This document shows positions 18,063 to 22,572 of a DNA stretch of 64,000 nt, piece after piece (within the stretch, counting starts at the first letter, position 1; each line of letters starts with the position of its first letter). A program made the position numbers and the translations under genes. The DNA is from Cyanobacteria bacterium GSL.Bin1 (GTDB lineage: Bacteria; Cyanobacteriota; Cyanobacteriia; Cyanobacteriales; Rubidibacteraceae). The notes under the pieces were generated by a model. The model was given only the letters and a program-made list of their open reading frames with translations, made no database searches and had not been told where the DNA came from. The stretch lies in assembly GCA_009909085.1 (NCBI GenBank), contig JAAANX010000093.1:1-64000 (forward strand). The letters are read 5' to 3'.

Positions 18063-18258
18063 TAATCAGCAAGTTTGAGACACTAAACTATATTTTCAGA
18101 TTACCTTAACGTTAAAGACAAAACTGACCCGTGATCAAATCTATTTATCTTAAGTTAGTGACAGACGCGATCGCGCTTTATTGAGCAATACAGAGACTAT
18201 GTAATGCACCCGCTACTTTGAAACCATAACCATTAGATCATATTCTAATCGCGCAGGA

Positions 18259-18537
18259 TTAAACTGACTGGGATAGTTTCCAATATTCAGCATCTTCTGC
18301 ATCTAAATCCGCTTCAATTTTATTACGATTGGCGTGATAATAGGCTAAAGCAGCATACACTTGAGCAAGGGTAAGATGACTCAAACGACGAGCAATTTCT
18401 TCAGCACTTGCACCTTGTTTGTAGAGAACCACTACTCGACGGACAGATGTTTTTGTCCCTGTAATCATCGGGCGACCTTTACCAACATCTGAGGAAGTTG
18501 TAACTAATGTACCAATATCAGTCGTAGCAGACATCAT
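18259..18537 (-). CDS. Orphan DUF433 protein (antitoxin-like)
   Basis: A 92-residue protein with the DUF433 core: GRPMITGTKTSVRRVVVLY, then GASAEEIARRLSHLTLAQVYAALAYY, a helix-turn-helix-like DNA-binding segment. DUF433 proteins are usually antitoxins paired with DUF5615 PIN-like toxins. I looked for a DUF5615 frame downstream (18063-18258, minus strand) and saw none, so this copy appears to be unpaired. The start may be the first or second Met. Confidence 0.78.
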   Translation of the reverse strand: MMSATTDIGTLVTTSSDVGKGRPMITGTKTSVRRVVVLYKQGASAEEIARRLSHLTLAQVYAALAYYHANRNKIEADLDAEDAEYWKLSQSV

Positions 18538-18590
18538 TGAGTTAACAGTAACAGGTTATTTTCTCTAGCCTATCATTGAAGGAAGAAGAG

Positions 18591-18640
18591 GAAGCGCGAT
18601 CGACGCGGAGCGTCGCTGAGCTTTGCTCAATCGCGCCTTC
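18591..18640. repeat. Branched palindromic element
   Basis: An outer stem (GAAGCGCGAT with ATCGCGCCTTC, one bulge) encloses two small hairpins: CGACGC-GGA-GCGTCG and TGAGC-TTT-GCTCA. The whole can fold as a three-way junction. A shorter, degenerate relative is at about 19767-19805, upstream of the second toxin-antitoxin module. Confidence 0.55.
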
Positions 18641-18656
18641 TATTTACTATTCATAA

Positions 18657-18682
18657 CTTTTTCGATCAATTCGTTATAATTT
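18657..18682 (+). promoter_or_regulatory. Promoter of toxin-antitoxin module 1
   Basis: The 26-base segment from CTTTTTCGATCAA to GTTATAATTT contains a consensus -10 box TATAAT at 18675-18680, 33 bases before the module 1 ATG. Nearly the same segment (one mismatch) recurs at 19822-19847 before module 2. The -35 region is not canonical. Confidence 0.55.
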
Positions 18683-18712
18683 AGGAAGGTTAGAATTAAA
18701 TGTTATTTAAAG

Positions 18713-18874
18713 ATGAGTAACAAGCTAAGCAAGAAGCAAAAAACTAAAACAATTGGTGAACGTTTAGCAGAGGAAGAGATTATCTTTGGGGAAGGAGATA
18801 TTAATTTATCAGAACGTGAAACGCGCAAAGCAAATGCTCATAAAGCGGTGAACAAACGTCATCGATCCGATTAA
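18713..18874 (+). CDS. Small antitoxin-like protein, module 1 (53 aa)
   Basis: A 53-residue, highly charged protein read directly from the sequence (begins MSNKLSKKQK, ends KRHRSD). I do not recognise the family. It is placed as the antitoxin of a PIN toxin whose ATG begins 5 bases after this stop. The Lys/Arg-rich ends could bind nucleic acid and the acidic middle (AEEEIIFGEGD) could bind the toxin; that is inference. Confidence 0.7.
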   Translation: MSNKLSKKQKTKTIGERLAEEEIIFGEGDINLSERETRKANAHKAVNKRHRSD

Positions 18875-18879
18875 TGTGA

Positions 18880-19329
18880 ATGGATCAATTAGCATTAATA
18901 GACGCGGGTCCGTTAATTTCTTTTTATAACAAGCGGGACAAATATCACAAGCAGATTATCGAATTTTTTCGAGATACCTCTATTACTCAGCTAGTTACAA
19001 CAGATGCTTGCATTGCTGAAGTAATGTATAGCTTAGGGCAAATTAAGGGACAGTCTCATCAGCTACAAGCTCAATTTTCTCGACATATTAATAAAGAAAT
19101 TTGGCATCGAGAACCTTTAATACAGGAAGATTTTTTAAGAATCGCTGATTTATTCCAAAGATATAATAATGTTCCTGCTGATTTTGCTGATTTATCACTG
19201 GTTGTTATTTCTGAACGGCTTGATATTTATCAGATCGTAACTTTAGATAGCGACTTTGATATTTATAGGAGATTTGATCAATCTACACATTCCTTCGTTC
19301 GGATCTTCTATCCCAATTCTGAAGTATAG
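18880..19329 (+). CDS. PIN-domain ribonuclease toxin (VapC-like), module 1
   Basis: A 149-residue PIN-domain protein. The four acidic active-site positions are visible: Asp8 (LIDAGP), Glu47 (IAEVMY), Asp104 (DFADLSL) and Asp123 (TLDSDFDIY). VapC-type toxins cut tRNA or rRNA in a Mg2+-dependent way. The gene is close-coupled to the 53-residue upstream gene and transcribed from the promoter at 18657-18682. The low GC content compared with the flanking genes fits an accessory island. Confidence 0.85.
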   Translation: MDQLALIDAGPLISFYNKRDKYHKQIIEFFRDTSITQLVTTDACIAEVMYSLGQIKGQSHQLQAQFSRHINKEIWHREPLIQEDFLRIADLFQRYNNVPADFADLSLVVISERLDIYQIVTLDSDFDIYRRFDQSTHSFVRIFYPNSEV

Positions 19330-19367
19330 CAGTTCCTAAGCGGGTGAGGTACAAAATTATCGGTTTC

Positions 19368-19395
19368 GGGAATAGGGAATAGGGAACAGGGAATA
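19368..19395. repeat. Tandem heptamer GGGAAYA, four copies
   Basis: Four consecutive 7-base units: GGGAATA, GGGAATA, GGGAACA, GGGAATA. This is a short tandemly repeated repetitive (STRR) sequence of the kind common between cyanobacterial genes. It lies between module 1 and the DUF2283 gene. Confidence 0.75.
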
Positions 19396-19515
19396 AAGGA
19401 TGTACTTCATGAGAATAAGAATTGCTATATAATTTTTTTTCCATCCATAGCGTTTATTTTGATTTTGTAAAAAAATCTTTTCAAGTAACGCTTTTTCTGA
19501 TCGTAAATTTAAGCC

Positions 19516-19728
19516 ATGAAGATGCAATATTTTGAAGACACAGATACGCTCTACATTGAGTTTCGGAGCAATGATATCGTAGAAACGAAAAACCTTGATG
19601 AAAATACACTTCTCGATCTGGATTCTCAAGGAAATATTTGTGCAATTACTTTTGAACACGCGAGCACGAATACTGATTTGCAACGAGTTACGGTTGAAGG
19701 AATTGATGTATCTTCTAATCTCGGATAA
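19516..19728 (+). CDS. DUF2283 family protein
   Basis: A 70-residue protein with the DUF2283 pattern: MKMQYFEDTDTLYIEF, then ETKNLDENTLLDLDSQGNI, then a final VEGIDVS. The family has no assigned function but is often found beside toxin-antitoxin genes. No partner gene is adjacent here. Being enclosed by two toxin-antitoxin modules supports an accessory role. Confidence 0.75.
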   Translation: MKMQYFEDTDTLYIEFRSNDIVETKNLDENTLLDLDSQGNICAITFEHASTNTDLQRVTVEGIDVSSNLG

Positions 19729-19821
19729 TAATTGTAAACAGGCATTCATAATTACTGAGATTTAAAGAGGAAGGGCGTTGCTGAGTTTCCCTCAATCGCG
19801 CATTTCATTCCCTGTTCAGAC

Positions 19822-19847
19822 CTTTTTCGATCAACTCGTTATAATTT
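19822..19847 (+). promoter_or_regulatory. Promoter of toxin-antitoxin module 2
   Basis: Differs at one position from the segment before module 1 (18657-18682). TATAAT is at 19840-19845, 66 bases before the DUF433 ATG. The similarity extends to both sides, so it is a duplicated upstream cassette and not only a shared consensus. Confidence 0.5.
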
Positions 19848-19910
19848 TAAAAAGTTTAGAATAAAACGCTACTTTCCAGCATCACTGCTTGATCCAAGTG
19901 CATTACTTTT

Positions 19911-20153
19911 ATGACACTAGACCGTATTACTAGCGATCCTAACCGTATGAACGGTCAACCTTGCATTCGTCATCTCCGCCTAACGGTGCGCCGAGTGCTG
20001 GAATTAATTGCAACCTACCCTGACCGTCAAGAACTGTTTCAAGAGTTTCCTGAGTTAGAAGAGGAAGACATCCAACAAGCACTCATTTTTGCCTCTTCCT
20101 ACTTGGATGATTATATTATGGAATTACCTAAAAGTAATGAGACTGCTGCTTGA
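19911..20153 (+). CDS. DUF433 antitoxin, module 2
   Basis: An 80-residue DUF433 protein. The N-terminal ITSDPNRMNGQPCIRHLRLTV is the family signature, followed by the helical stretch VLELIATYPDRQELFQEFP. It overlaps the DUF5615 toxin gene by 17 bases (20137-20153), the usual arrangement for this pair. It is expected to neutralise the toxin and repress the shared promoter. Confidence 0.88.
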   Translation: MTLDRITSDPNRMNGQPCIRHLRLTVRRVLELIATYPDRQELFQEFPELEEEDIQQALIFASSYLDDYIMELPKSNETAA

Positions 20154-20511
20154 TCAGGGCTTACCTCGCTCTGCTGCAACTCAACTCTCTGAAGCTGGAA
20201 TCAATACAATTCATGTTGCTGAAATCGGTTTGTCAGCAGCAGATGATCAAGACATCCTCCAGAAAGCAAAAGATGATAATCGAGTTGTTATTACCCTTGA
20301 TGCAGACTTTCATGCTCTATTAGCTCTCAGTGGCGCCGATTCTCCTTCTGTAATTCGCATCCGAATTGAAAGATTACGTGCTCAAGAATTAACCAATTTG
20401 CTCTTAACGGTGATTAGTGAGTTTGTCGAATATCTAGAACAAGGTGTTGTGATAACAGTGGAACTGAGTCGAGTTCGTATGCGTCACCTCCCACTGGTAA
20501 CAGATAGCTAG
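20137..20511 (+). CDS. DUF5615 PIN-like toxin, module 2
   Basis: A 124-residue protein starting MRLLLDQGLP. DUF5615 is a PIN-like (Mut7-C-related) nuclease family. Acidic positions are visible at Asp6, Asp36/37 (AADDQDI) and Asp55/57 (TLDADFHAL). The ATG at 20137 was chosen because the family always begins near the first Asp motif; a longer frame to 20089 reads through the antitoxin gene. It overlaps and is co-translated with the DUF433 antitoxin. Confidence 0.85.
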   Translation: MRLLLDQGLPRSAATQLSEAGINTIHVAEIGLSAADDQDILQKAKDDNRVVITLDADFHALLALSGADSPSVIRIRIERLRAQELTNLLLTVISEFVEYLEQGVVITVELSRVRMRHLPLVTDS

Positions 20512-20611
20512 AATAATGAACAATCGCGCTCTATTTAGCTAAGCCAACTGATCTGCTCCTTTGCCATAATATATTGTAAGCAGCCATTCATTTATTAATG
20601 AGTCTTTAGGA

Positions 20612-20824
20612 ATGACGTTACAAGAGATTCTTCAATCCCTAGAAACTTTATCTGAAGAAGAGCAAGACATCTTATTGGAAATTTTACGTCAGAGACGAAA
20701 TCCCACTCAGAAATATTCACTCATTCATTCTTTACGGGGAAAATATGCTGATGTAACGACTAGTAGTGATGAGTTTGCTGCTAGAAAAGAACGAGAAATT
20801 GATTGGGAAAATCGCAACAGATGA
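20612..20824 (+). CDS. Antitoxin, module 3
   Basis: A 70-residue, Glu-rich protein with an N-terminal helical segment (LQEILQSLETLSEEEQDILLEIL) and a C-terminus (EFAARKEREIDWENRN) like small antitoxins paired with VapC. No DNA-binding fold is obvious. Its TGA overlaps the toxin ATG by 4 bases (ATGA at 20821-20824), a typical translational coupling. A possible -10 (CATAATAT) lies about 40 bases upstream. Confidence 0.8.
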   Translation: MTLQEILQSLETLSEEEQDILLEILRQRRNPTQKYSLIHSLRGKYADVTTSSDEFAARKEREIDWENRNR

Positions 20825-21225
20825 ATGTTGTTTTAGATGCTTGTGCTGTAATTGCCTTCTTTCGGGATGAAGTTGGTGCTGAAATTGTAGAAGATTCTTT
20901 TCTGGATGAACGATCAACTTGTCTAATTCATAGCATCAATTTATGTGAGGTATATTATGATTTTTTGCGAATGAGTGGAGAAGAGGCAGCACAAAGTATG
21001 GTTCGAGATTTACAAGGACTTGGAGTAATAATTCGTAATGATTTAACAATTGACTTTTGGCAACAAGCTGGTCAATATAAAGCAGTAATTAAAAGGATTT
21101 CTCTTGCTGATTGCTTTGCTCTCACTTTAGCTAATCAAGAAAGTGCAACTCTGCTAACTTCTGACCGCAAAGAGTTTGAACCGATTATTCCCCTCAATAT
21201 CTGTCAGATTCATTTTATTCGTTAA
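20821..21225 (+). CDS. PIN-domain ribonuclease toxin (VapC-like), module 3
   Basis: A 134-residue PIN-domain toxin. Active-site acids are Asp6 (VVLDACAV), Glu43 (NLCEVYY), Asp97 (SLADCFAL) and Asp115 (LTSDRKEFE). It belongs to a different VapC subgroup from the module 1 toxin. The ATG at 20821 overlaps the antitoxin stop; the reading frame extends 18 bases further up but without a coupling signal. Confidence 0.88.
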   Translation: MNVVLDACAVIAFFRDEVGAEIVEDSFLDERSTCLIHSINLCEVYYDFLRMSGEEAAQSMVRDLQGLGVIIRNDLTIDFWQQAGQYKAVIKRISLADCFALTLANQESATLLTSDRKEFEPIIPLNICQIHFIR

Positions 21226-21570: not shown

Positions 21571-22572
21571 CTAATTGCTTTTGATATGCTGCAAAATATT
21601 ATCTTTAGTTTTTTGATAATACTTGATTAATTTCTGTAAATTTTTAACTTTTTCTTTCGACACTTCAGTATCTGCTTGGTCTTCAAATTCGCGTATGCTT
21701 TGTTTAAGAGAGTTAACGATTTCCTTAGCTTGATTAATCTTTGCTTGCTCTTTTATGAATATGTTTATTGAAATAACTTGTATTTTTGCACATTCATAAA
21801 GAACGACCTCAGGATTTTGAATTAAAGAAGCTATTCCTAATCCACTAGCCCCTCCCAAAATTGCACCGCCTCCTACAATAACTGTAAAGCCACCAGCCAT
21901 TCCAAAACCTCCTGCAGCAAGAGCTCCACCTCCTAGTGCTGCTAAACCAGAGCTTACGGCAGCAGCCCCACTTAAACCCGCTGCTGCAAAGATAGGAGCG
22001 ATAGCAGTAGCAGCAAACCCTCCAGTTACCGCAATAGCAGCAGCACCACCTAAAGCTAACATTAGAGATTTCTGTTTATTGCCAGAAGCATTATATATAT
22101 TCTCGAAAGCGGACTTCAGGCACTTCTTATAATGCAACGTTTTTTCTGCGCCCAAACCTAACATTGTACCTATATCACAGAGTTCACTTTCCCAATCAGA
22201 TTTATTAACTTTTAAGCCTTTCCATCTATCTTTTTGGGCTTGGGTAGAATCTGGAAAAGGTGTATATGGAATAAAACTAATAAGTTCCAAAATCATTATC
22301 CGAGATTTAGTAAAGAATAATTGATTTTCACGGAATTTATCCAGATCTGCTCTAAGTTCTTGAAAAGTTGTTTTAACTGTGTAGCTTGAATGACCTTCAG
22401 AAGATTTAAGCAAATTATTATAGTGACTAACCCATTGATAACGCCAATCCCGCTTTTTACCCTTTTTATCCTCATTAGAAGTCTTTAAGATATCTTCTAG
22501 AAGAAGCTGATATTTAAGACTACCCATTAAAGCAGTTTCAAAAGCATCAAAAGAAAACTCATCAGGAATCAT
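21571..22572 (-). CDS. Unknown protein with Gly/Ala-rich membrane-like core
   Basis: A 333-residue protein I do not recognise. The N-terminal half (about 1-165) is soluble and charged. Residues about 170-250 are a long Gly/Ala-rich hydrophobic run (for example GGAAAIAVTGGFAATAIAPI and GGGALAAGGFGMAGGF) with glycine-zipper spacing, compatible with membrane insertion or pore formation. The C-terminal 70 residues (INQAKEIVNSLKQSIREFED onwards) look like a coiled coil. It is AT-rich and adjoins the toxin-antitoxin island and a gene remnant, so it is probably accessory. A defence or toxin role is only a guess. Confidence 0.7.
   Translation of the reverse strand: MIPDEFSFDAFETALMGSLKYQLLLEDILKTSNEDKKGKKRDWRYQWVSHYNNLLKSSEGHSSYTVKTTFQELRADLDKFRENQLFFTKSRIMILELISFIPYTPFPDSTQAQKDRWKGLKVNKSDWESELCDIGTMLGLGAEKTLHYKKCLKSAFENIYNASGNKQKSLMLALGGAAAIAVTGGFAATAIAPIFAAAGLSGAAAVSSGLAALGGGALAAGGFGMAGGFTVIVGGGAILGGASGLGIASLIQNPEVVLYECAKIQVISINIFIKEQAKINQAKEIVNSLKQSIREFEDQADTEVSKEKVKNLQKLIKYYQKTKDNILQHIKSN

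Follow-up and report, generated by a model that had tools for sequence, protein, structure and literature searches.

Type II toxin-antitoxin pairs are usually viewed as two-gene units that regulate a promoter of their own. The locus described here raises the question of how two such pairs, unrelated in their coding parts, came to stand behind the same upstream block, and what this block does for them. It lies in the first 64,000 nucleotides of contig JAAANX010000093.1 of Cyanobacteria bacterium GSL.Bin1, which together form the window of this report (the genome as a whole is referred to as G000).

Homologous leaders upstream of two modules

The two blocks, called leader 1 (18587-18708) and leader 2 (19767-19874) here, show homology to each other. 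When positions 18540-18712 were searched against the whole 4.8 Mb genome, 18610-18708 matched 19775-19874 with 79% identity over 100 bp (E = 7e-17), and the local alignment of the two leaders scored 93, where 1000 dinucleotide shuffles reached 32 at most, which confirms the original prediction that some 100 bases upstream of both modules can be aligned. The alignment also bears out the 26-base block with one mismatch and a TATAAT inside it, called the core in the following (CTTTTTCGATCAAYTCGTTATAATTT; 18657-18682 and 19822-19847). Upstream of the core, leader 1 (18587-18656) consists of GAGGAAG, a palindromic element at about 18593-18636 and a tail, and is homologous to the degenerate palindrome and tail of leader 2 (19767-19821); downstream of it the leaders continue at 18683-18708 and 19848-19874, all on the plus strand. 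On the module 1 side the homology stops at 18708, directly 5' of the start codon (18713), and on the module 2 side at 19874, 36 bases before the start codon (19911). As single-stranded DNA the leader 1 palindrome is predicted to form a branched hairpin (z = -4.5), and the fold of the leader 2 palindrome is no better than that of shuffles (z = -0.4). Speaking against a promoter function, a scan for sigma-70 promoters gave no site at either leader, and 9 sites in the whole stretch compared with 10.4 expected from shuffles.

The surroundings of the leaders show some further features. A six-codon ORF (18701-18721) that follows AGGAAGG overlaps the start codon of the module 1 antitoxin, possibly for translational coupling. 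Module 2 is followed by another pair, the third, whose toxin is of the PIN type (20612-21225), and at 21571-22572 on the minus strand there is a 333-aa ORF with weak, sub-threshold Pfam matches. A 37-base piece of the third-pair leader (20566-20602) is repeated on the plus strand at 19725-19759, just 5' of leader 2 (score 40, maximum 26 in 1000 shuffles), so that a second leader piece is duplicated in the same island. Leader 3 has a short match to leader 1, equalled by one of 1000 shuffles.

Unrelated coding parts and a headless antitoxin

The coding parts behind the leaders are unrelated, as had been anticipated: a 53-aa ORF and a VapC-type PIN protein in module 1 as against DUF433 and DUF5615 proteins in module 2. 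The gene order of module 2 is that of PIN-COG2442 systems, the antitoxin gene DUF433-2 (19911-20153, plus strand; Pfam DUF433, E = 4e-19) being followed and overlapped by the gene of a PIN-like DUF5615 toxin (20137-20511, plus strand; Pfam DUF5615, E = 2.5e-28), both above the Pfam cut-offs.

The toxin of module 1, PIN1 (149 aa; 18880-19329, plus strand), gave no Pfam match as a single protein; Pfam PIN was matched by 11 of 13 aligned members of its family, and the family profile matched VapC26 (E = 1.6e-10), so that the PIN-domain toxin of a VapBC pair is recognised through homologues and profile. The adjacent antitoxin with a DNA-binding domain that belongs to such a pair is not seen in module 1, where the antitoxin AT1 (53 aa; 18713-18874, plus strand) is without the N-terminal part. 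Its alignment with homologous antitoxins is confined to their C-terminal part, its frame is closed upstream by a stop codon, and it has no match in Pfam or NCBIfam, the NCBIfam scan giving nothing useful.

For comparison, the 29 best-scoring other loci were fetched with PIN1 as query, 28 of which have a PIN ORF of sufficient length. The antitoxin ORF 5' of the PIN ORF has about 84 residues or more in 28/28, with an extra N-terminal part of about 44 residues (39-63; one start is ambiguous) before the conserved segment, for which a loose motif fits 25 of the 28. The 29th locus, a copy in the genome G002, is headless like that of the window, and headless forms could exist among lower-scoring loci. 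When five of these homologous antitoxins were scanned, the N-terminal part of one matched DUF2281 (E = 1.4e-4) and that of another, weakly, RHH_1 (E = 0.009), both below the Pfam cut-offs; of the remaining three, one gave no match and the others matched further families weakly. Module 1 is best read as a VapB/VapC pair with a headless VapB, whose leader is also used by a DUF433/DUF5615 pair.

Opposite AT1 and divergent from module 1 lies a further antitoxin-family gene without an adjoining toxin gene, DUF433-1 (18259-18537, minus strand; Pfam DUF433, E = 1e-15), whose product is little like DUF433-2. At 29 other loci with homologues, a toxin-like ORF lies directly 3' in 22 (calls mostly made by eye, one ORF being truncated), another DUF433 gene in 3, and none is listed in 4; no toxin remnant was recognised by eye in the three frames 3' of DUF433-1. 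That a DUF433 gene lacks a toxin is nothing out of the ordinary, since stand-alone DUF433 genes exist in Synechocystis according to the accessible part of PMC4963859. The predicted structure is helical and of low confidence (mean pLDDT 68), and a fold search gave no significant match (best E 0.7), with DNA-binding proteins frequent among the first matches. Leader 1 was also considered as the own leader of DUF433-1 and rejected as such, there being one 17-base match only, which is not 5' of the homologue's gene; the core was not seen in the nine upstream stretches inspected. DUF433-1 adjoins module 1 in the window and on contig C85, is absent beside the copy on contig C156, and does not occur next to the G002 copy within the 3.2 kb of that locus.

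Separate histories of leader and genes

G002 has a broken copy of module 1, situated within the gene of an acetyltransferase. From the start codon its antitoxin DNA is 77% identical to that of the window over 155 bp, and the DNA upstream is unrelated to leader 1 (score 17, against a mean of 15.5 and a maximum of 24 in 300 shuffles). For module 2 the 30 best-scoring loci of a search in 388 genomes were compared, and among these leader 2 is common to G000 and the genome G001 only, the two copies being orthologous with both situated 5' of the same oligopeptidase gene. Leader 2 was found in 0 of the 28 homologues of other genera (best score 23, which is the 99th percentile, with a shuffle maximum of 31), and two of these leader-2-less homologues are 79-80% identical to module 2 over the whole module. 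For 16 of the 28 the leader has a match among the other leaders compared, some of these matches being between near relatives. Ahead of the start codon of module 2 there is a short ATTAC-like stretch, which by eye resembles other genera and may be the end of an old leader. The leader was tried as an old leader of PIN1-type pairs too, and this was discarded, as nothing in L083-L110 matched it at E 0.01.

Because the same coding units stand behind other leaders in relatives, separate histories of leader and coding parts are well supported by these sequence comparisons, and a recombined history of leader and genes is highly probable. The original prediction had a promoter block that moves or recombines separately from the genes. 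Separate recombination agrees with the G002 copy of module 1 and with 28/28 module-2 homologues; movement of the block itself does not follow, as genes may have been swapped behind a fixed leader. That new pairs are repeatedly plugged in under one regulator goes beyond the evidence, the leader being carried by two known module types only. Between G000 and G001 leader 2 is 92% identical over 131 bp, compared with 79% between leaders 1 and 2, and this larger divergence suggests that the sharing is probably older than the split of the two genomes, unless DNA was exchanged later.

Origin of the arrangement

In the explanation that we prefer, both leaders descend from one leader, as their homology shows, and within the genus this leader is joined to two unrelated toxin-antitoxin units at or shortly before the start codon. 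The joint lies in the last bases before the ATG in module 1, and between 19875 and 19910 in module 2. We infer joining by recombination from the relatives that have the same units behind other leaders, and both a moving leader and a swap of the genes behind it would fit. AT1 keeps the half that is next to the toxin gene in its homologues, presumably the toxin-binding one, and is without the N-terminal half that looks DNA-binding in homologues, so it probably cannot regulate itself and self-regulation would have been lost. The leader would then supply the expression of module 1, either constitutively or via a regulator in trans. Taken as a whole, with the role of HIP1-type palindromes but without the DUF433 step (both discussed below), we give this explanation a probability of roughly 65%. 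What can be held against it is the G002 copy of module 1, which is broken and lies inside another gene, so that its leader may be the derived one. As this copy is headless too, the N-terminal loss is not tied to the leader considered here. Also counting against the preferred explanation are the lack of sigma-70 sites in the leaders, the small number of independent cases, the weakness of the matches between homologous N-terminal halves and DNA-binding families, the low likeness of DUF433-1 and DUF433-2, the palindrome fold that leader 2 has not kept, and the changes in the core and the antitoxin end of two module 1 copies (see below).

The strongest alternative differs mainly in the role given to the leader. 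A pair would have been duplicated together with its leader, other genes would later have come to lie behind one copy by deletion or insertion, and the leader would be a passive remnant with the pairs expressed separately, a course of events whose chances we put rather short of even. It would be in line with the other duplicated pieces of the island, namely part of leader 3 before leader 2 and module 1 in three copies, and with the decay and rearrangement that are common for such genes, called mobile and prone to recombination in the portion of PMC2701414 at hand. The two other copies of module 1, on C85 and C156, are 91-95% identical to that of the window. Both have TATGCT instead of TATAAT and frameshifted AT1 ends, and judged from these changes they look like decaying copies. 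They have the left flank in common, and what sets them apart is a segment containing DUF433-1 and the palindrome, the joint being in GCGATCGCGC (loci L005 on C85 and L006 on C156).

A function of the leader, as opposed to a passive remnant, is suggested by its conservation in G001, where 74 of 74 bases at 19823-19896 are identical, though recent exchange would fit as well. The stretch before is identical at 22 of 26 bases, the neighbouring oligopeptidase region is 91% identical over 3263 bp, and DUF433-2 shows a dS of 0.10 and a dN/dS of 0.05, the latter from six changes. In the G001 copy (L013, 1843-2107) a frameshift and a deletion have disrupted the toxin of module 2, with the DUF433 antitoxin intact and the leader conserved.

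Occurrence of the leader

With at most three mismatches the core occurs at five places in the genome, two in the window and one each on C85, C156 and C48. Those on C85 and C156 each precede a copy of module 1, and the one on C48, with 3 mismatches, is inside another gene. At no more than two mismatches there are four copies in this genome and one in G001, every one before module 1 or module 2, and with fewer than two mismatches the core was found beyond its own genome in G001 only, before its module 2, among the 388 genomes of the order. Outside the genus it was found at 15 places in these 388 genomes, all with two mismatches, compared with 32 for a reversed-pattern control; 14 of the 15 were inspected. 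At 9 of them the match falls within an ORF longer than 150 codons, and at the other 5 no toxin-antitoxin pair was recognised by eye. In six genomes of the genus the tail pattern was found at four G000 sites and at the right edge of the G001 module-2 block. The hairpin pattern occurred in the genus in the leader 1 copies of the window and C85, at the same G001 edge, and in one G003 match with three mismatches.

When 87 bases of leader 1 were compared with 60 genomes, there was one clear match outside its own genome, again G001; the next-best matches were short (E from 1.5e-4 upward) and are read as chance. The exact 19-base core was present at 6 places of unrelated bacteria in genome_contigs, which is roughly chance level, and the search for wider occurrence gave 1 place in viral contigs, with no match of leader 1 in plasmids or phages. 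The cassette occurs rarely and goes with these toxin-antitoxin pairs, though the independent cases are few, module 1 being represented by three duplicated copies in one genome and module 2 by two orthologous copies.

In leader 1 the palindrome stands beside the core, as it does in a different form in G001, where palindrome and tail are present once more, lacking the core, at the right edge of the module-2 block. Both observations would suit a small mobile, MITE-like element made up of palindrome and core, which carried a promoter and was inserted ahead of both modules. Such an origin is nevertheless quite improbable, as the copies are very few and, except for the C48 core and the G003 hairpin, all at toxin-antitoxin sites of the genus, and as C156 has the core and is without the palindrome. 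An ordinary interspersed repeat standing by chance before both modules, for which only short pieces resembling palindrome ends speak (e.g. 24 bp at C48:48671), has next to no probability and is refuted at the sensitivity of the core, tail and hairpin searches, which found hardly any other site in the six genus genomes. The genome-wide search, by which the original prediction was to be tested against a common repeat, thus showed no spread over many unrelated sites.

Junctions and HIP1-type palindromes

Seven rearrangement junctions, selected by ourselves, were examined, and an exact GCGATCGC is present at four of these. They are the start of the homology between the window and C85 at 18166, where the HIP1-type palindrome CGCGATCGCGC is situated (18166-18176), the junction between C85 and C156, the right end of the acetyltransferase insertion in G002, and the left G001 edge, where a palindrome contains GCGATCGC. 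At the right G001 edge the junction is at a palindromic element without an exact GCGATCGC, and two junctions, the left acetyltransferase end and the end of PIN1 on C85, are at neither palindrome nor GCGATCGC. With 42 GCGATCGC sites in the 64 kb window, four of seven in a self-chosen set looks like more than chance. The junctions between leader and genes are not at HIP1 sites.

In G002 (L082, 602-2087) two toxin-antitoxin pairs, the broken module 1 among them, have taken the place of the central part of an acetyltransferase gene which is intact or longer in five relatives. At the right junction the homology resumes exactly at GCGATCGC in 4/5 relatives for the DNA and in 5/5 for the reading frame, with two of the five giving weak matches a few bases further on in other frames. 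Some of the rearrangements near the modules probably took place with HIP1-type palindromes as joints.

Possible control by a DUF433 protein

If the leader is controlled in trans, the most likely regulator would be a DUF433 protein, either DUF433-2 or the divergent, toxin-less DUF433-1. The DUF433 family structure 2GA1 is a 3-helical DNA/RNA-binding bundle according to Makarova and co-workers (in the available text of PMC2701414), and the excerpts at hand of PMC3834315 describe that the DUF433 antitoxin VapB10 of Synechocystis binds an inverted repeat 5' of its own promoter and activates it. The PaaR2-PaaA2-ParE2 system, as presented in the accessible sections of PMC8630535, combines a short antitoxin that has no DNA-binding domain with a separate regulator. 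Since DUF433 antitoxins can activate and PaaR2-PaaA2-ParE2 has a separate regulator, control of leader 1 by DUF433-2 or DUF433-1 may tentatively be suggested by analogy, although we consider it unlikely on balance. More doubtful still is the full picture, in which a headless VapB/VapC pair would be driven via a leader that answers to a foreign or toxin-less DUF433 protein, leaders would be exchangeable, and one antitoxin would serve two toxins.

At this locus the histories of leader, antitoxin half and toxin are separate inside one small island, and an antitoxin that is without its usual DNA-binding half stands behind a leader common to an unrelated pair. Should a DUF433 protein indeed act on both leaders, an antitoxin could control a foreign pair, and such cross-control would bear on the persistence of the many toxin-less antitoxin genes.

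Comparison with known systems

Among the titles and abstract openings covered, mostly of non-subscription journals, no description of a leader common to unrelated toxin-antitoxin pairs was found. Module 2 has the same gene order and families as the PIN-COG2442 type of VapBC, for instance vapBC10 of Synechocystis PCC 6803, and pairs of this type are abundant in cyanobacteria according to the accessible text of PMC3834315 and PMC2701414. It differs from these systems in that its leader is common to an unrelated pair, and in that DUF433-1 is without a toxin.

It is tempting to compare module 1 with paaR2-paaA2-parE2, as in both a short antitoxin without a recognisable DNA-binding domain lies by the toxin with a helix-turn-helix-like protein nearby. 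The paaR2-paaA2-parE2 regulator is part of the operon and was shown to act, as stated in the sections of PMC8630535 at hand. Here, in contrast, the candidate regulator is divergent and of another family, and the toxin is VapC-like. The junctions recall HIP1 recombination places in cyanobacteria, as several are at GCGATCGC; hints of site-specific recombination at HIP1 are cited in PMC4390886, where the CGCGATCGCG form is given for Halothece. Unlike the HIP1 cases in the accessible part of that paper, the rearranged segments described here are toxin-antitoxin units. Set beside these systems, the locus is a real and unusual local arrangement within known toxin-antitoxin families.
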